From: Streptomyces echinatus
GTDB lineage: Bacteria > Actinomycetota > Actinomycetes > Streptomycetales > Streptomycetaceae
Length of the DNA stretch: 64,000 bases
Direction: 5' to 3'
Assembly (NCBI RefSeq): GCF_014203595.1
Contig: NZ_JACHJK010000002.1
Coordinates: 496,001 to 560,000, forward strand
The position numbers and the translations under genes were made by a program. The notes beneath the pieces are model-generated. The model was not told the origin of the DNA. It was given only the letters and a program-made list of their open reading frames with translations, and did not search any database. Positions 22,664 to 30,949 of the stretch are shown here, piece after piece. Each line of letters opens with the position of its first letter. The first letter of the stretch is position 1.

Positions 22664-23455
22664 TCAGCCGGTGCCGCGGGCCTGGTGCGACTCGGCCACG
22701 ACAGCGGCCATGAGTTCCGCGTCCAGCACGGAGACGTCGGCCAGGCGGGAGGCGGCGGACAGCGAGTTGAGCAGCGTCTTGGTGACGCGCAGTGCGGCCG
22801 GGGGGCGGCGGACGATGGGCCGGGCCCAGTCGGCGACGGCCGCGTCGAGCTCATGAGCGGGGACGACCCGCTGCAGGATGGACAGGTACTGGGCCTCCGT
22901 CGCGGTGAAGGCGCGGCCGGTGAGGACGAGTTCGCGGACTCGTGCGGCACCGGCCTCGTTGATGAGGCGAGGCAGGAGGCCGCCCCAGGCGGTGGGCAGT
23001 CCGAGGGCGAGTTCGGGCAGCCGGAAGGTCGCGTCCTCGGATCCGACCCGCAGATCACAGGCGAGCGCCAGGGCCATGCCGGCGCCGATCACCTTGCCGT
23101 GGACACGGGCGATGGTGACGGCCGGGTTCGCGGTCAGGGCGTCGCAGACGCGCTGCGCCTTGATTCCCGACATGCGGATGCCGCTGCCCGTGGGATCGTG
23201 GGCGAGATGCCGGGTGAACTCGCCGCGGTCCCCGCCGAGGCAGAAGTCGTCGCCGCTCCCGGTGAGCACGACCACCCGGACCGCCGGGTCCTGGTCCTGC
23301 AGCACCGCCAGCAGGTCGTCCAGCATGGTGTCGGTGACCGCGTTGCCCTGCTCGGGGGTGTTCAGCTCGATGGTGAGAACGGGGCCCTCCCGGAAGGTCC
23401 GCAGGGTCTGCCGTACGGCACCGGCCGGGAGGGCTCCGAAGGAGAGGGCGGTCAT
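22664..23455 (-). CDS. Enoyl-CoA hydratase/isomerase (crotonase) family
   Basis: This 263-residue crotonase has LTGSGDDFCLGGDRGEF for the first oxyanion/CoA site, VHGKVIGAGMALALACDLRVGSEDATF for the second, and LPELALGLPTAWGGLLPRLI holding the conserved Glu. The family acts on acyl-CoA thioesters by hydration, isomerisation or related chemistry. ATG 23455 overlaps the TGA of the P450 gene by four bases (ATGA), so the two are translationally coupled and probably act in the same pathway. That pathway is unknown. Confidence 0.85.
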   Translation of the reverse strand: MTALSFGALPAGAVRQTLRTFREGPVLTIELNTPEQGNAVTDTMLDDLLAVLQDQDPAVRVVVLTGSGDDFCLGGDRGEFTRHLAHDPTGSGIRMSGIKAQRVCDALTANPAVTIARVHGKVIGAGMALALACDLRVGSEDATFRLPELALGLPTAWGGLLPRLINEAGAARVRELVLTGRAFTATEAQYLSILQRVVPAHELDAAVADWARPIVRRPPAALRVTKTLLNSLSAASRLADVSVLDAELMAAVVAESHQARGTG

Positions 23456-24711
23456 GTCGTCACTTTCAGGGAGGTGATGCGCCGGAAGACCATCCGGTTC
23501 GCGTAGGCCGGGCACGCGGCGGGCCGCAGAGTGGGGAATCGGCGCAGCAGCTGGGTGAGCAGGAGGCGGGCCTCCATACGGGCCAGGGCCGTGCCGAGGC
23601 AGTAGTGGGCGCCACCGCCGAAGGTGAGGTGGCCGCCCTTGCGCCGGATGTCGAAGACGTGGGGCTCCGGGTTGCGGCGCGGGTCGTGGTTGGCGGCGCC
23701 GTAGAGGACGTGGACGGTGGTGTCCTTGGCGATGGGTACGCCGGCGAGGACGGTGTCGTCGGCGGCGAAGCGCGAGTTGAGGTGGATCGGCGGGTCGTAG
23801 CGCAACACCTCGTCGACCGCGTCGTCCATGTGGTCGGGGTGCCTGCGCAGCCAGTCGGCCCGGGCGGGATCCCGGGTCAGGAACCACACCGCGTTGGCCA
23901 GCATGGTCGCGGTGGTCTCCAGGGAGGCGATGGTGATGAACATCGTCAGGTCGTACAGCATCTGGTCCGCCGCCGCGCGGTCGTCGGGGTACTGGACGTC
24001 CCAGTAGCGGATCCATCCGCTGAGGACGTCGTCGCCCGGGTGGGCGCGCCGGTCTGCGACGAGGCCGGTGAAGAAGGCCCTCATCTCCAGCGTGGCCTCG
24101 GCCGAGATCGCCAGTTCGCTCTTGGTGGGGAGCAGTTCCTGGGCGTGGACCTGCCGGTGGGTGAAGTCCAGGATGTGCGGGAAGTGCTCGGCCGGGATGC
24201 CGAGCCAGTGCCCCACGGTCTGGATCGGCAGCTGGTCGCCGACCGTGGTGGCGAAGTCGGCCTCGCCGCGGAGGCGCAGCTGGAGATCGAGGTCGTCCAG
24301 GAGCCGGGTGACATGGGCGTCGACCTGCGGCCGCATGACCTCCAGGGTGTGGCGGTCGAAGAGATTGCCCAGGGCGCGGCGCTGGAAGGTGTGGACGGGC
24401 GGGTTGAGGCGGGAGAGCGTCCGCGTCATCTCCCGCGTCGCCGGATCCTGCCAGCGAGCCGCGTCGGGCCGGCGCTCCTGCCAGGCGAAGTCCGGCACGA
24501 GCCAGTCCCGGCCGCGGAGGATCTGACTGCAGGCCTCGAATCCCGTCACGAAGTACCCACCCCACGGAGCGGGGACCACTTCGCCGAGCGCGCGCAGATC
24601 GTCCCAGACGGGAAGAGGGTTGGCCTGTCCCTCCTGGGAACGGAGCCGGCGGAGGAGGGGGACGACCGCCCGGCGGTCGGTGGTACCGCGTATGACGCCG
24701 GCGGCGGTCAC
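23452..24711 (-). CDS. Cytochrome P450 (second P450 of the conservon block)
   Basis: This 419-residue P450 has the heme-binding loop FGGGAHYCLG with Cys ~371, a normal ExxR motif (DEVLR) and an I-helix ITIASLETTATML in which the acid-Thr pair (ET) is kept while the usual AGHETT reads ASLETT. It should bind heme and activate oxygen with ferredoxin partners. It begins with GTG 24711, 104 bp after the CYP157-like gene, and overlaps the crotonase, so the three may be one transcript. The family number cannot be assigned by eye, and the substrate is unknown. Confidence 0.85.
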   Translation of the reverse strand: MTAAGVIRGTTDRRAVVPLLRRLRSQEGQANPLPVWDDLRALGEVVPAPWGGYFVTGFEACSQILRGRDWLVPDFAWQERRPDAARWQDPATREMTRTLSRLNPPVHTFQRRALGNLFDRHTLEVMRPQVDAHVTRLLDDLDLQLRLRGEADFATTVGDQLPIQTVGHWLGIPAEHFPHILDFTHRQVHAQELLPTKSELAISAEATLEMRAFFTGLVADRRAHPGDDVLSGWIRYWDVQYPDDRAAADQMLYDLTMFITIASLETTATMLANAVWFLTRDPARADWLRRHPDHMDDAVDEVLRYDPPIHLNSRFAADDTVLAGVPIAKDTTVHVLYGAANHDPRRNPEPHVFDIRRKGGHLTFGGGAHYCLGTALARMEARLLLTQLLRRFPTLRPAACPAYANRMVFRRITSLKVTT

Positions 24712-24815: not shown

Positions 24816-26165
24816 TCAGACCCGGAAGATGTCCAAAAACGTACTCCAGAAGCCCTTCTTCCTGGCCGGTTCCTGACGTGTCGCGGCGGCCGGAGACATG
24901 GGCAACGGCTGCTCCGGCGCCGCGGGGACGGTCCGGCCCTGCAGCGCGGCGGCCATGCGGGTCGCCGGTGTCGGGCTGAAGGCCACGGGCAGCGTGCCCA
25001 GCGCGCGGTGGAACGGTCCCGGCCGCCATTCCAGCTCCTTCTCATGGACGGCCAGCGTCAGGTCGGGCAGGGCGTTGAGGAGCTTCTCGATCGCGGTGAC
25101 GGCGATGACCTGCGCCGGGTCCTTGGCCGGGCACGCGTGCGGGCCCGCTCCCCAGGCCAGGTGGGCGCCCTTGCTGTGCGTCCGGCGGGCCTCGGCCAGC
25201 GCGGGATCGCTGTTGGCCGCGGCGAAGCTGATGACGACCGGGGTGTTGGCCTCGGCCACCACCCCGCCGAGGTCCACGTCCTGCACCGGGTAGTGGGTGG
25301 CGTAGTTGGCGATCGGCGTCTGGTTCCACAGCACGTGATCGATCGCCTCCTCGATCAGCAGCCCTGAGTCGCGTCCGCTGGAGCCGGGTGACAGCAGCAG
25401 AAGCAGCGCGTTGCCGATCAGGTTGCGCTCCGGCTCCACGCCGGCGCCCATCAGCATGACCAACTGGTCCTTGAGTTCCTCGTCGGTCAGCCCCGCCGGG
25501 TGCTGGATCAGCCAGGAAGTGACGTCGTCACCGGGCCGGCGCCGCTTCAGGGCGATCAGTTCCATGAGGCAGCCGGTGAGCTCCTCGTTGGCGCGCAGGG
25601 CGTCCTTGCCGTCGAAGATCGCCGACATGGAGCTGGTGAGGGTGTCACCGATGTCCGCCGGGCAGCCGAAGAGCTTGTTGAACAACAGCAGCGGCAGCAG
25701 CTTGGCGTAGTCGTTGAGGAGGTCCGCCCGGCCGCGCTCGCTGAACTGGTCGATGAGGTAGTCGGCGATGGGCTCGACGTCCCGGCGGATGCGCGTGATG
25801 TTGAGCCGGGCGAGGCTGTCCGTGACGGCCTTGCGCAGCCGCAGGTGCACGGCGCCGTCGGTGAACAGGCAGTTGGGCCGGTACATCATCATCGGCAGCA
25901 CCGGGTGGTCCAGCGCGACCCGTCCTTCGTTCAGCGCCTTCCAGCGGCGGGCGTCCCGGGCGAAGAGCGTGGAATTCTGCAGCACGCGCAGCGCCGTCTC
26001 GTGGCCGACGACCAGGGTGGCGTCTATGCCGGGCGCGAGTTCGACCGGCCCTGCCGGACCGTGGGCGCGCAACCGGTCGTACACCTGGTGGGGGTCGGCG
26101 GCGAACGAGGCGTCGTGCATGGGGCATCTGGCCCCGGCGGGGGTGGGGGCTGACTGGCGGTCCAT
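24816..26165 (-). CDS. cvnE: CvnE: CYP157-like cytochrome P450 with degenerate motifs
   Basis: This 449-residue P450 is the fifth conservon gene. Two hallmark motifs are altered. The ExxR site reads HVLW (residues 277-280, in AIDHVLWNQTP), so both Glu and Arg are replaced, as in the CYP157 group where EQSLW is described. The heme loop reads WGAGPHACPAK, with the axial Cys at ~345 but Trp for Phe and Ala for the final Gly. The C-terminal ~60 residues are a Pro/Ala linker ending GFWSTFLDIFRV, an amphipathic or membrane-contact tail. It probably partners the membrane-associated conservon complex. ATG 26165 follows the GTPase by 49 bp. Confidence 0.88.
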   Translation of the reverse strand: MDRQSAPTPAGARCPMHDASFAADPHQVYDRLRAHGPAGPVELAPGIDATLVVGHETALRVLQNSTLFARDARRWKALNEGRVALDHPVLPMMMYRPNCLFTDGAVHLRLRKAVTDSLARLNITRIRRDVEPIADYLIDQFSERGRADLLNDYAKLLPLLLFNKLFGCPADIGDTLTSSMSAIFDGKDALRANEELTGCLMELIALKRRRPGDDVTSWLIQHPAGLTDEELKDQLVMLMGAGVEPERNLIGNALLLLLSPGSSGRDSGLLIEEAIDHVLWNQTPIANYATHYPVQDVDLGGVVAEANTPVVISFAAANSDPALAEARRTHSKGAHLAWGAGPHACPAKDPAQVIAVTAIEKLLNALPDLTLAVHEKELEWRPGPFHRALGTLPVAFSPTPATRMAAALQGRTVPAAPEQPLPMSPAAATRQEPARKKGFWSTFLDIFRV

Positions 26166-26214: not shown

Positions 26215-26817
26215 TCAGGCGGCTCGGGTGAGCAGGTGACGCACGAGCGCGATCAGCGCGTGGGCGGAGGACTGCCGGTCGCGGGCGTCGCAGTAGACGA
26301 CGGGGGTGTCGGGGAGCAGGTCGAGCGCCTCGCGCACCTCCGCCTCCTCGTACACCGTGCTCGACTGGAAGCTGTTGACCGCGATGGCGTACTCCAGGCC
26401 GTACCGCTCGACGAGATCGATGACGGGGAAGGTCTCCTCCAGCCGTGCGGGGTCGACCAGCAGCAGCGCCCCCAGTGCGCCGCGGGCCATGTCCTCCCAC
26501 AGCTGCATGAAGCGCTGCTGTCCGGGGGTGCCGAACAGGTACAGCACGAGGTCGTCGCTGAGCGTCAGGCGGCCGAAGTCCAGCGCGACGGTGGTCGTGC
26601 GCTTGTCCGTCACGCCTCTGAGGTCGTCCACATGGAGGGACGCCTGCGTCATCTTCTCCTCGGTGCGCAGCGGGGCGATCTCCGACAGCGAACCGATGAG
26701 CGTCGTCTTGCCCACGGCGAAGTGCCCGACGACCAGGATCTTGGCAGCGTTGGTCACCGCGCTGGAGACGTAGATGGATCCAGGGGGCGTCTCAGCCGAT
26801 GAGGGATTGGAGTCCAT
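26215..26817 (-). CDS. cvnD: CvnD: conservon Ras-like GTPase
   Basis: This 200-residue small GTPase has G1 GHFAVGKTT, G3 GTPGQQRF and a G4 site reading AVNSF in place of NKxD, which is usual for this conservon group. The complex CvnA-D is proposed to work like a membrane heterotrimeric G-protein system in Streptomyces development and metabolism. Its start overlaps the end of cvnC by 26 bp. The N-terminal ~20 residues are Ser/Pro-rich and precede the fold. Confidence 0.9.
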   Translation of the reverse strand: MDSNPSSAETPPGSIYVSSAVTNAAKILVVGHFAVGKTTLIGSLSEIAPLRTEEKMTQASLHVDDLRGVTDKRTTTVALDFGRLTLSDDLVLYLFGTPGQQRFMQLWEDMARGALGALLLVDPARLEETFPVIDLVERYGLEYAIAVNSFQSSTVYEEAEVREALDLLPDTPVVYCDARDRQSSAHALIALVRHLLTRAA

Positions 26818-27163
26818 TCAGAACCTTCTCCAGGGTCGCTCTGTCTACGTTCTGAGCCCGGGGCGGCTCGGCGCGGCGCAGGAGGTGTCCCTGCTCGGAT
26901 AAGTCGGTCAGCAGCAGCCGTGCCACCCCCACCGGCAGTCCCACGTGTCCGGCCACCTCGGCGACCGACAGGTAGCCGCCCGCGCACAGGTTCCAGATGG
27001 ACATCACCTCGGGACCGGCTCCCAGCGGAGGGGTCCGCTCGGGAGCCAGGGTGACCAGGGTGTGCAGCGCCAGGTCGTCCGCGTCCGGCAGGGTCCGGCC
27101 GCCGGTGATGACGTAGGAGCGGACGAAGTCGCTGGTGACGGAGGCTTCCTCGCCGGGCGTCAT
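26792..27163 (-). CDS. cvnC: CvnC: DUF742 protein
   Basis: This 123-residue protein contains FVRSYVITGGRT, WNLCAGGYLSVAEVAGHVGLPVGVARLLLTDLSEQGHLLRR and a C-terminal LEKVLNGLQSLIG, all diagnostic of DUF742 with its winged-helix-like core. In conservons it bridges the roadblock protein and the GTPase. ATG 27163 overlaps the cvnB stop (ATGA). The arrangement indicates coupled translation. Confidence 0.9.
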   Translation of the reverse strand: MTPGEEASVTSDFVRSYVITGGRTLPDADDLALHTLVTLAPERTPPLGAGPEVMSIWNLCAGGYLSVAEVAGHVGLPVGVARLLLTDLSEQGHLLRRAEPPRAQNVDRATLEKVLNGLQSLIG

Positions 27164-27561
27164 GCGTGGGCACCGTTGTCCGTGCGCGGTGCCACACTCA
27201 TCGCCTTGCTCAGGGAGACCACCGTCTTCTGCATGCGGAAGGACATGGCCTCCATGTCGACGTCCAGGGCGGCCGAGACGGCGAGGTACGCGCCCTGGCC
27301 CGCGGCGATCAGGAAGATCCAGCCGCCGTCGTACTCCAGCAGCGTCTGCTTCCAGATACCGTGCCCCGCTCCCACGAACCCCGCGACGGCCCGGCTCAGC
27401 GACTGCATCGAGCTCATCGCGGCGGCGTTCGTCTCGGCGTCGTCCCGCCCGATGTCGTCCGAGCGCTGCAGCAGCAGGCCGTCGCCCGAGACGAGGATCG
27501 CGTGCCGGGCTCCGCGCACCTCGAGCACGTCGTTCAGCACCCAGGACAGGTCGGTCTTCAC
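27160..27561 (-). CDS. cvnB: CvnB: roadblock/LC7-domain protein
   Basis: This 133-residue roadblock/LC7 protein has the N-terminal DLSWVLNDVLEVRGARHAILVSGDGLLL typical of GTPase-regulating roadblock proteins and a C-terminal helix. Roadblock dimers act as GTPase-activating or scaffolding partners for Ras-like GTPases, here CvnD. It starts with GTG 27561 in a GTGA overlap with the cvnA stop. Confidence 0.9.
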   Translation of the reverse strand: MKTDLSWVLNDVLEVRGARHAILVSGDGLLLQRSDDIGRDDAETNAAAMSSMQSLSRAVAGFVGAGHGIWKQTLLEYDGGWIFLIAAGQGAYLAVSAALDVDMEAMSFRMQKTVVSLSKAMSVAPRTDNGAHA

Positions 27562-28760
27562 TGGTCGTCAGATCCTTCCATGGTGTTCGTGGTGCGCCCG
27601 AGCTGGGTCCCGCGGGCGAACGCCCCGAGCCGTGACGCCGTCACCTCGCTGGCCGGCTGAGAGGTCCCCTCCTGATCACCGGCGTCGAGCGCCGGGACCA
27701 CCGTGACGGGGCCGTTGCGGCGCCGGCGCTTGGGCAGACCTCCCGTGGTCGTTCCCACCACGTGCGAGGGGCCCACGACCGGGACCGGCGCGAGGCGCTG
27801 GGGCGCGCTCTCCGGGGCCACGGTGCCCTGGGCGTCGGCCGCGGGGGAAGGAGCGTCGGCCGCGAGGAGACTTTCGGGCACACGAATCACTGCACGCACT
27901 CCGCCATAGGGGGATACGGAGCCGACGGAGACGGCGAAGCCGTAGCGGGCGGCGAGCATGCCGCACACGGCGAAGCCGAACCGCGGCGGATCGCCGAGCC
28001 CGGTGATGTCGACGGGACCGTCGACGGACAGCAGGGACGCCGCCCGGTCCTTGGTCTCCTGGTCCATGCCGAGGCCGGCGTCGTCCACGATGAAGCACAC
28101 ACCGGTCGGTACGGTCTGGATGTTGACCTCGACCGGCGTTCCGGGCGCGCTGTAGTTCGTGGCGTTGTCCAGCAGTTCGGCCAGTACGACGGCCACCGGC
28201 TCGACCGCCTTGCCCACGAGCGAGACGTTGACCTGCGAGTGGACGCCGACCCGGTCGAAGTCCCTGATCCTGCCCTGGGCGCTGCGGGCGACGTCGTAGA
28301 CGGTGGCGGCACCGTCACGCCTGCCCAGCCAGCCGCCGCACAGCACGGAGATGCCCTTGGCGCGGCGGCCGAACTGGCTGCCGGTGTGGTCGACCGCCAT
28401 CAGGTCGCCCAGGACGTCCGTGGTGTCGCCGTACTTCTTCAACAGGTCGTCGAGGAGTACCTGCTGCTCCTCGGCGAGTGACTGGAGCGTTCCCATGGCG
28501 GACTTCAGCACCGCCTTGGTCGCCGCCTCCGCGTCCGCCCGTACGTCGGCGAGGTCGCGCTGGTGCTGCGCGGTCAGCCCGGCGATGTGCCCGTGGAGCT
28601 GGCTCACGTCGCCGCGGGCCTCTCCCAGTCCTGTCTCCAGGTCCTTCCTCGTTCTTCGGAGAGCCATGTTGGTTCTCCTGGCCCTCATCACCGCGACGAC
28701 CGCAACGATGAGCACCACCAGCAAGATCCACAGCAGTGGATCCGTGGTCAATGACGTCAT
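27558..28760 (-). CDS. cvnA: CvnA: conservon sensor histidine-kinase-like protein
   Basis: This ~400-residue protein has one N-terminal membrane helix (LLWILLVVLIVAVVAVMRA), a long coiled-coil region and a GHKL ATPase domain with LAELLDNATNYSAPG (N box), VDDAGLGMD (G1), and GLGDPPRFGFAVCGMLAARYG (G2). There is no obvious phospho-accepting His box, as expected for CvnA/nitrate-sensor-like proteins. A disordered Pro/Arg C-terminus includes KRRRRNGP. ATG 28760 is preceded by gaagagag; longer in-frame starts at 28781 and 28838 are less supported. The 228 bp upstream carry a TAAGAT -10 candidate and serve the whole operon. Confidence 0.9.
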   Translation of the reverse strand: MTSLTTDPLLWILLVVLIVAVVAVMRARRTNMALRRTRKDLETGLGEARGDVSQLHGHIAGLTAQHQRDLADVRADAEAATKAVLKSAMGTLQSLAEEQQVLLDDLLKKYGDTTDVLGDLMAVDHTGSQFGRRAKGISVLCGGWLGRRDGAATVYDVARSAQGRIRDFDRVGVHSQVNVSLVGKAVEPVAVVLAELLDNATNYSAPGTPVEVNIQTVPTGVCFIVDDAGLGMDQETKDRAASLLSVDGPVDITGLGDPPRFGFAVCGMLAARYGFAVSVGSVSPYGGVRAVIRVPESLLAADAPSPAADAQGTVAPESAPQRLAPVPVVGPSHVVGTTTGGLPKRRRRNGPVTVVPALDAGDQEGTSQPASEVTASRLGAFARGTQLGRTTNTMEGSDDQ

Positions 28761-28988
28761 GAGACTCTCTTCAAGTCGCATCGCGCCAGGAGCGTGCGAG
28801 CGCGATGGTGCCTTTGACTGCCCCCCAGACGCGTTCATGACACGCCGTCAGCCCACTGAAAGGTGGGATGATCTTATCAGTCACACAGACACAACCAGCT
28901 TGCCCCAAGGCCTACTTGAGACGTCACGAAACCCACACACCGTTGTCACGTGCCCGTCGGACGACGGCTGCCGGAGGGTCGGGTGGGC

Positions 28989-30113
28989 TCAGCCCGGCCA
29001 CACCCCTGTCACCAGGAACGAGTCGATCGTCGCCGCGTACGGCGCGATGTCCAGGCCCTGCCCGCCGAGCCAGGCGTCCGAGTAGTACTTGTCCAGGTAC
29101 CGGTCCCCCGGGTCGCACAGCAGGGTGACGACACTGCCCGTACGGCCCTCGGCCACCATCTCGGCGACGATCTTCAGCGCGCTCCACAGACCGGTGCCCG
29201 TGGAGCCGCCCGCCTTGCGGCCGATGGCCCCCTCCAGCGCCCGCACCGCGGCGACGCTGGCCGCGTCCGGGACCTTCATCATCCGGTCGATCGCGCCGGG
29301 CACGAAGCTCGGCTCCATGCGCGGCCGGCCGATGCCCTCGATCCGGGAGCCGCAGTCACAGGAGACCTCCGGGTCGCCGGTGGTCCAGCCCTCGAAGAAA
29401 CAGGAGTTGTCCGGATCGGCCACACAGATCCGGGTGTCGTACTGCATGTAGTGGACGTAGCGGGCGAGGGTCGCCGAGGTGCCGCCGGTGCCGGCCGTGG
29501 CCACGATCCAGGCCGGCTCCGGGAACCGCTCCAACTGCAGCTGGCGGAAGATGGACTCGGCGATGTTGTTGTTGCCGCGCCAGTCCGTGGCCCGCTCGGC
29601 GTAGGTGAACTGGTCCATGTAGTGGCCGCCGGTCTCCACCGCGAGGCGGGCGGACTCCTCGTACATCTTCCGGGAGTCGTCCACGAAGTGGCACCGGCCG
29701 CCGTGGAACTCGATCAGGCGGATCTTCTCGGCGCTGGTCGTGCGCGGCATGACCGCGATGAAGGGCACGCCGATCAGCTTCGCGAAGTAGGCCTCGGAGA
29801 CCGCCGTCGAGCCGCTGGACGCCTCGATGACCGGCCGGTCCGGTCGGATCCAGCCATTGCACAGGCCGTAGAGGAACAGGGAACGGGCGAGCCGGTGCTT
29901 GAGGCTGCCGGTCGGGTGGGTGGACTCGTCCTTCAGATAGAGGTCGATACCCCACCGCTCGGGCAACGGGAAGCGCAGCAAGTGCGTGTCCGCCGATCTG
30001 TTGGCGTCGGCCTGAACCTTGCGAACGGCTTCTTTCAGCCAGCCACGGTAGGCGGGGTCGCTGCGGTCGACGTCGAGGGTGGCGCCGGTCGTGGTCTGGG
30101 GGGTGGTGCTCAC
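28989..30113 (-). CDS. PLP-dependent cysteine synthase/desulfhydrase family enzyme
   Basis: This 374-residue fold-type II PLP enzyme has [20 protein letters not shown] with the Schiff-base Lys in SLKHR, the phosphate-binding EASSGSTA loop and [14 protein letters not shown]. The long insert with [13 protein letters not shown] and a Cys-rich [12 protein letters not shown] segment resembles actinobacterial Cds1-type L-cysteine desulfhydrases rather than CysK/CysM. Either sulfide release from cysteine or a cysteine-synthase activity is possible. GTG 30113 has a strong aaggag site. The 306-bp divergent gap contains a TATGCT -10 candidate. Confidence 0.82.
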
Positions 30114-30419
30114 GGAGGGGCTCCTTACGCTCGTCGCCGACGGCGCCTCACGCGGGCCGGCACATCGAGCATAGGCACTCTTCACACGCCTTCCCACCTG
30201 CATAAACGCATCTTTGAGCCACCCAAAGACCCGCTGGGGCACGCACGTGCGAGCCGACCGGGGGCGCATGGACGCAAGTGCTCCGGGCGGAAGCCGCGGG
30301 CGCCCCGCGCACACTGGTGCTCCACGCCGCGCCGGGGCAGACTGCACGCGACGGGACGACCCGTCCCGAACGGGGGCGCACACGCAACCACGGGAACACC
30401 CGCAAGGGGGCGGCGAGAC

Positions 30420-30743
30420 ATGGCGGAGCCGGAGTTCACGGCCACGGGCGTGCGAATCGGCAAACGCCTGCGTTCGCTCACCCGGGCCGGACAGGTCCGG
30501 ATCAGCGAGGGCAGGCTGCAGTTGCTCAACAGCTACGGCAGCGAGATCGACAGCGCGCCGGTGCAGGCGGTACGCGCCTCCACGCCCTGGTTCGTGCCGG
30601 ACGACCGGGCATTGGCCGACGTGAACGGTACGCGGTATCTGCTGACGCTGGGCGAGCGGGATCCCGCCCCCGGCCGGCCGGGGCCGCCCGCGGCACGTCG
30701 GTTCGTCGAGGCGGTCCGCCGGGCGGCGGGCGACGGCGGCTGA
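30420..30743 (+). CDS. Small conserved hypothetical protein
   Basis: This 107-residue soluble protein contains [23 protein letters not shown], a beta-rich middle [21 protein letters not shown], and [25 protein letters not shown]. The middle resembles the PH-like or SH3-like sheet of small actinobacterial proteins, but I do not recognise a named family. ATG 30420 has ggcggcgaga upstream. A nearby upstream gap (30114-30419) holds the divergent promoter. Function unknown. Confidence 0.65.
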
Positions 30744-30949
30744 GCGACGCACCGCCGTGGCGAGTTGCGGGAGCGCATCCACTGCGCCACGCTGGTCTCA
30801 CGTCACTCTGGGTTTACCGGCGATAACGCTGCGAACCAGCCCGCCGGCCACGACAGCAGGCGGACGTTTGGACGCAAGCACCCTGCTGGATCCGTTGTTC
30901 TCCGTGTTTACTCCGGTTCCTCCGGACCTCACATCGGGGAGTCGCAGCC

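Follow-up and report, generated by a model that had tools for sequence, protein, structure and literature searches.

The altered P450 motifs of a conservon-linked CYP157-type protein from Streptomyces echinatus are family traits

In Streptomyces coelicolor, conservons 9–12 carry P450s, and CvnA7–13 have two membrane segments with fewer than 20 residues between them and no extracellular sensor, according to the accessible part of the report (PMC8510531). The accessible text of a second paper states that the accessory proteins CvnE and CvnF overwhelmingly accompany CvnA proteins that lack an extracytoplasmic sensor domain, that CvnF8 stimulates CvnA8 and that there had been no earlier biochemical assessment of either accessory type, CvnE or CvnF (PMC13343842). 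It also gives the authors' AlphaFold2 model, in which CvnE11 sits on the ATPase domains of CvnA11, and it indicates the histidine-kinase-like CvnA as the partner of CvnE (PMC13343842). P450 motifs and a C-terminal tail are not discussed in the accessible text of either paper.

The CYP157 family, as set out in the available part of PMC3599690, combines an upstream conservon with a Trp-ending motif in place of ExxR and a retained Cys. Its recorded motifs include EVLW, EQILW and, for CYP157C1, EQSLW, and a protein takes the name when its identity to a named CYP157 exceeds 40% (PMC3599690). P450 surveys, as far as their available text goes, look for both ExxR and CxG and exclude proteins that have just one of them (PMC6408508, PMC7369989). 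One such survey still counts 525 CYP157s in 203 species (PMC7369989), and the other gives Glu at ExxR in its 1625 Streptomyces P450s, except in 34 that it calls fragments or pseudo-P450s (PMC6408508). Absence of ExxR is likewise reported, in the accessible part of PMC4694641, for trematode P450s, with CYP157 cited as precedent; these differ from the protein described here in being animal proteins that are also said to lack J helices.

Here we describe a CYP157-like P450 gene in a window (the whole stretch of DNA that was analysed, 64,000 nucleotides of S. echinatus), where it is the fifth in a row of genes that runs in the order cvnA, cvnB, cvnC, cvnD, CYP157-like P450, second P450 and enoyl-CoA hydratase-like gene:

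27558 to 28838, minus strand: cvnA, histidine-kinase-like, with PF02518 as its sole Pfam match
27160 to 27561, minus strand: cvnB, roadblock/LC7 (PF03259)
26792 to 27163, minus strand: cvnC, DUF742 (PF05331)
26215 to 26817, minus strand: cvnD, small GTPase (PF03029 and PF00009 above cut-off), overlapping cvnC
26165 to 24816, minus strand: CYP157-like (CvnE-type) P450 of 449 residues, from the open reading frame and its translation, ATG start
23452 to 24711, minus strand: second P450, canonical (PF00067), with EVLR, the loop Cys and the acid–Thr pair in its translation
22664 to 23455, minus strand: enoyl-CoA hydratase-like gene, its family named by eye from the translation, overlapping the end of the second P450

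Conservon linkage is present, with cvnA–D directly upstream and 49 bases between cvnD and the CYP157-like gene; AGAAGGAA lies upstream of the ATG start of the gene (26165–24816), and a 104-nt gap separates it from the second P450. The locus resembles those of CvnE proteins, as far as these are described in the accessible text, in that the P450 gene directly follows cvnD and the CvnA of the same operon has no extracytoplasmic sensor domain (PMC13343842, PMC8510531). In the window CvnA, Pfam finds HATPase_c (PF02518) and no sensor domain. Crude hydropathy gives this protein one clear N-terminal membrane segment (residues 35–53), against two in CvnA7–13 in the available part of PMC8510531; a second hydrophobic stretch (205–223) coincides in part with the beginning of the ATPase match. 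Hydropathy counts for CvnA were inconsistent at other loci, probably through uncertain starts and hydrophobic ATPase stretches, and the window CvnA alone was used. Nine DUF742 genes in the genome exceed the Pfam cut-off, two of which adjoin a CYP157-type P450, namely the window gene and a paralogue, L163. A promoter scan of the locus found none, and the one terminator-like match (24865–24846; 1.0 expected by chance) falls within the gene, at its 3′ end. Upstream of the conservon, at 28989–30782, is a pyridoxal-phosphate enzyme that scores 599.6 bits against the 600-bit NCBIfam cut-off for L-cysteine desulfhydrase Cds1; because the match begins only at residue 248, the true start probably lies downstream of the listed one.

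The following segments of the CYP157-like protein carry the P450 motifs and the C-terminal tail:

25833 to 25847, minus strand: C-helix HLRLR, residues 107–111
25422 to 25445, minus strand: I-helix AGVEPERN, residues 241–248, with the acid kept and Pro245 at the place of the oxygen-activation Thr
25326 to 25337, minus strand: K-helix HVLW, residues 277–280, at the place of ExxR
25164 to 25211, minus strand: shortened meander, residues 319–334, without the Arg-bearing PDPDRFD-type motif
25122 to 25154, minus strand: heme loop WGAGPHACPAK, residues 338–348, containing Cys345
24819 to 24857, minus strand: W-rich amphipathic C-terminal tail, residues 437–449, after a variable linker

HVLW at 277–280 and WGAGPHACPAK at 338–348 read as they did in a preliminary description of this DNA, which had also called the protein CYP157-like and conservon-linked; cvnA–D directly upstream and the loci of relatives bear that out. 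The K-helix Glu–Arg pair and the I-helix Thr of a conventional monooxygenase are absent (H277, W280 and P245). ExxR, the meander motif and the I-helix Thr are usual in P450s such as CYP154C2, and all are missing here. In other P450s the meander carries the third Arg of the triad. Two CYP157 features are present, W280 in place of the ExxR Arg and a heme-thiolate Cys345, and the His/Arg pair of the C-helix (HLRLR, 107–111) is presumably placed at the heme propionates. HVLW is more than alignment noise, because Glu and Arg occupy the aligned K-helix positions in each of the 23 further P450s from this genome with which it was compared. These 23 distinct proteins come from 31 P450-like places, from which we excluded the window gene itself and L002/L163, its paralogue, as well as the adjoining second P450, in which EVLR is visible by eye, and any place giving no protein or that of a neighbour. 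The ExxR Glu stated for Streptomyces P450s in the available part of PMC6408508 is missing from the window protein.

The Pfam P450 model PF00067 has no match in the window protein at an E value of 0.001 or 0.01, and NCBIfam P450 models match it with scores below their cut-offs. Across an ortholog alignment of 51 members that includes the window protein, PF00067 matches 28 at E 0.01, missing the window protein and 22 of the 50 orthologs. P450s are nevertheless among the matches listed in a PDB sequence search, and the AlphaFold2 model has a P450 fold (pLDDT 74.5, pTM 0.74), in which the heme loop (339–343), residues 94–102 and the tail are of low confidence. VIA on the model gives Z 37.6 and rmsd 3.4 over 377 residues to CYP154C2 (9u53); CYP154C2, PikC and CYP154C1 hold the top ranks with others tied in Z, and Foldseek places DmlH first among the matches listed. 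The modelled protein would share its overall fold with CYP154C2, PikC and CYP154C1 (PDB 9u53, 2bvj and 1gwi) over residues about 10–401.

We compared the protein with CYP157-like relatives collected by their similarity to it, which gave at least 170 distinct proteins (window included) of 94% to 34% identity; because they were drawn from the matches listed, the counts describe this neighbourhood rather than all CYP157s. The K-helix Arg is missing in 166 of the 170 (Trp in 150, Leu in 6, Phe in 5, Tyr in 3 and His in 2, with Arg in the remaining 4). The residues at the Glu place are His 62, Asp 46, Glu 33, Gln 19, Arg 6, Thr 2, Ala 1 and Leu 1. Around the heme, Cys345, His343 and His107 are kept in 170/170 and Arg111 in 165, and in the I-helix Pro245 and an acid at 244 in the form of Glu are each found in 159/170. 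Two residues after the Cys, position 347 carries Ala (141), Gly (11), Ser (10) or Val (8). The meander is shortened in most relatives, and its motif is detected by pattern in 1/170 (L163, a chance match) versus 20/23 of the other P450s of the genome, although the pattern misses 3/23 in which close variants are visible by eye.

The states at 277 and 347 lie within this spread, indicating that H277 and Ala347 are states of the family and not peculiar to the window protein. The preliminary description had treated the protein as altered relative to other CYP157s, a view that does not survive the comparison, since H277, W280 and Ala347 all fall inside the range of the 170 relatives. Nor is the change of the last heme-loop Gly unusual, Ala being the common state (141/170). 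HVLW differs from the EVLW, EQSLW and EQILW of the available part of PMC3599690, and this difference too is within the spread of the relatives. Loss of both ExxR residues had been singled out as special; EQSLW, however, aligns with Gln at the Glu place and Trp at the Arg place, so that the known CYP157C1 also lacks both, as does L163 of the same genome, which reads EQSLW. The window protein is 34% identical to L163 (CYP157C-type by its motifs), and graded relatives from 94% identity downwards connect the two. A CYP157A example, Svu023 (GHQPT, EVLW and HRCPFPA in the available part of PMC3599690), resembles the distant relative L219 more than it does the window protein.

Position 277 changes often. 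In the near group (at least 66% identity, 93 counted), the residue is encoded by CAC or CAT in 58 members and by GAC in 30; a single base separates CAC from GAC. Mapped on a tree, there are at least 25 changes at 277 and 24 at its neighbour 276, compared with 6 at W280, 7 at 347 and none at H343. The tree, with 125 members and the K-helix masked, was a quick one without bootstraps; 36 of its 127 inner branches are weak, and long ones were flagged. L121, whose contig ends within the gene, is left out of the tree and tail counts. For the gene as a whole, dN/dS is 0.11–0.26 (median 0.17) in 12 pairs of window gene and relative, and the gene is under purifying selection.

Two smaller groups of relatives depart from Trp280. 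Arg stands at 280 in L195, L199, L203 and L210, which on the quick tree branch within groups whose residue at 280 is different and in most cases Trp. One of them, L210, has the complete ExxR as EVLR, and these four represent an apparent return of ExxR inside a family that lacks it. VLL replaces VLW in a small clade (L035, L104, L106, L107, L121, L134 and L139). A link of W280L to loss of the second P450 was considered, as all 5 near W280L loci with enough flank lack that gene versus 8 of the 73 others, but it was rejected because W280L is a single clade and the association counts as one event.

The P450 domain and linker are followed in the window protein by the tail KKGFWSTFLDIFRV. The linker ranges from 36 to 65 residues in the near group and its residues are highly variable, whereas G438, W440, F447 and R448 of the tail are invariant there. 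By a loose rule (an extension of at least 25 residues with at least two Phe or Trp and one Lys or Arg within the last 18), the tail is present in 93/93 near (at least 66% identity), 35/37 middle (48–66%) and 17/39 far members, failing in 22/39 of the last; no tail of this type occurs in the 23 other P450s of the genome by the same rule. A strict rule missed some W-rich tails seen by eye (for example L148, L159 and L212), and the counts therefore use the looser one. AlphaFold2 predicts a helix at 439–448 with low confidence. The hydrophobic moment of the last 11 residues exceeds that of most self-shuffles in the window protein (p 0.027), while other members varied, some being low. Coupling between tail and W280 was tried as a further candidate: by the strict rule W280 is missing in 14/26 tail-less versus 3/99 tailed members, but only 6 independent tree pairs were available, with the two traits together in 0.8 on average, and the coupling is unsupported.

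In 14 loci (L171, L177, L185, L192, L195, L196, L198, L199, L200, L202, L203, L204, L205 and L222), coding for the downstream canonical P450 begins, by profile match, 52–151 nt before the CYP157 stop and in another frame; start codons were inspected in five of them. The same DNA in L171 reads SLVAWWRGQ followed by the stop as the CYP157 tail and LPGGVVAWAVT as the next P450. Dual coding in the overlap loci and an origin of the W-rich tail by overprinting are possible.

Conservon linkage holds across close relatives, with cvnA, cvnB and cvnC upstream in 80/80 and cvnD in 79/80. Among 60 more distant loci, picked by hand from the match lists, conservon genes were detected in 44 and, within about 6–7 kb, in none of the other 16; the search profiles derive from the very loci to which they were applied, and conservon genes that are divergent or lie farther away may escape them. 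The Arg is missing from 16/16 relatives at loci without a detected conservon (13 Trp, 3 Phe), so the sequence oddities alone do not point to signalling. A partnership with the conservon GTPase, put forward in the preliminary description, is not specifically supported by anything other than the common operon: the same 16 relatives lack the Arg, the loci L131 and L180 keep cvnABC and the P450 without cvnD, and the accessible literature favours CvnA (PMC13343842). L131 (Streptomyces bungoensis) and the more distant L180, in which cvnD is missing in cis from between cvnC and the P450, are natural test cases for dependence on a cis GTPase.

The window gene is almost certainly a typical CvnE-type CYP157 P450 of a Streptomyces conservon. 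As an explanation of the whole, we give roughly an even chance to such a typical CYP157 serving as a heme-binding accessory subunit that modulates CvnA. The specific proposal made in print for CvnE, under which an accessory heme-thiolate subunit modulates the kinase-like CvnA, we hold only tentatively, at somewhat below even; it is favoured by the CvnE/CvnF literature together with a window CvnA that has no sensor domain, and it ranks ahead of a non-classical catalyst and then of a helper for the second P450. The protein probably still folds as a P450 and binds heme through Cys345, with Trp280 sitting where the triad Arg normally does and residue 277 free to drift. With less certainty, it would not be a usual O2-activating monooxygenase; instead, it may sense a ligand, a gas or a redox state at the heme, and the sensed state may modulate CvnA, in which Pfam found no sensor domain. 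The C-terminal tail would perhaps serve as the docking element.

The preliminary description had offered a heme sensor or a non-classical catalyst, a general guess that is partly in print and seems reasonable, given that the Cys, the loop His and the C-helix His are kept while the I-helix Thr has become Pro and the triad is gone. A heme-thiolate enzyme that dispenses with the usual acid–alcohol O2 activation, for example one that uses peroxide or catalyses a rearrangement, could make or destroy a small conservon signal. Retention of the heme ligands and of the acid at 244 beside Pro at the Thr place (each in 159/170) is in keeping with this, and peroxide-using P450s with Pro at the same I-helix place exist (CYP152). 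The motif alone, however, says nothing about chemistry, and in the window the second P450 and the enoyl-CoA hydratase-like gene are all that directly follows by way of metabolic genes. Such a catalyst seems rather unlikely.

A canonical P450 lies directly downstream in 65/78 near, 25/43 wide conservon-linked and 7/16 wide unlinked loci with enough flank, and all 97 of these proteins have the Glu, the Arg, the Cys and the acid–Thr pair. They fall into clearly distinct groups, being 61–88% identical to that of the window in near loci where found, 49 and 52% identical in two middle loci and 25–32% identical in the 18 such loci listed. Because it stands beside near and unlinked loci alike, a P450–P450 partnership fits as well, in which the CYP157-like protein would stabilize or regulate its neighbour in the manner of P450-derived glycosyltransferase activators. 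We judge this role a little less probable than the catalyst. The CYP157-like gene is kept where the second P450 is absent (13/78 near and 18/43 distant linked loci). The activator model TIGR04515 is among the weak NCBIfam matches of the window protein (71.6 bits against a cut-off of 343) but scores the canonical neighbour higher (138.2 bits), so this match says little. To our knowledge, P450-derived glycosyltransferase activators lack the heme Cys, which is invariant in the CYP157-like relatives. Decay of a P450 whose motif was lost through absent selection would fit the drift of residue 277 and the failure of PF00067 to match the window protein or more than 28 of 51 orthologs at E 0.01; conservation of the Cys and the loop His in 170/170, with His107, and the low dN/dS argue otherwise, as does a match at E 1e-60 or better in 199/200 family genomes, though this may be to another CYP157 type. 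We regard decay as highly improbable.

This analysis brought out the tail, the lack of an Arg-bearing meander and the drift at 277; the literature searched, in the parts accessible and with the 2006 CYP157 paper outside the search, makes no mention of them. Mutation tests have simple targets in the conserved tail and in position 277, which drifts. The odd residues of the window protein are common to its family, making it by sequence an ordinary member of a known group of Streptomyces P450s. With Pfam missing many of its members and surveys filtering on ExxR and CxG, this common Streptomyces family may be undercounted. More speculatively, and in our estimate improbable as a complete account, CYP157/CvnE proteins may be P450-fold heme-thiolate receptors rather than enzymes, which would have shed the triad and the oxygen-activation Thr, would detect a ligand or gas with their heme and relay this to the ATPase domain of CvnA, and would be held by a dedicated amphipathic tail on a flexible linker. 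If that is true, a P450 would be employed for signalling in a G-protein-like system.
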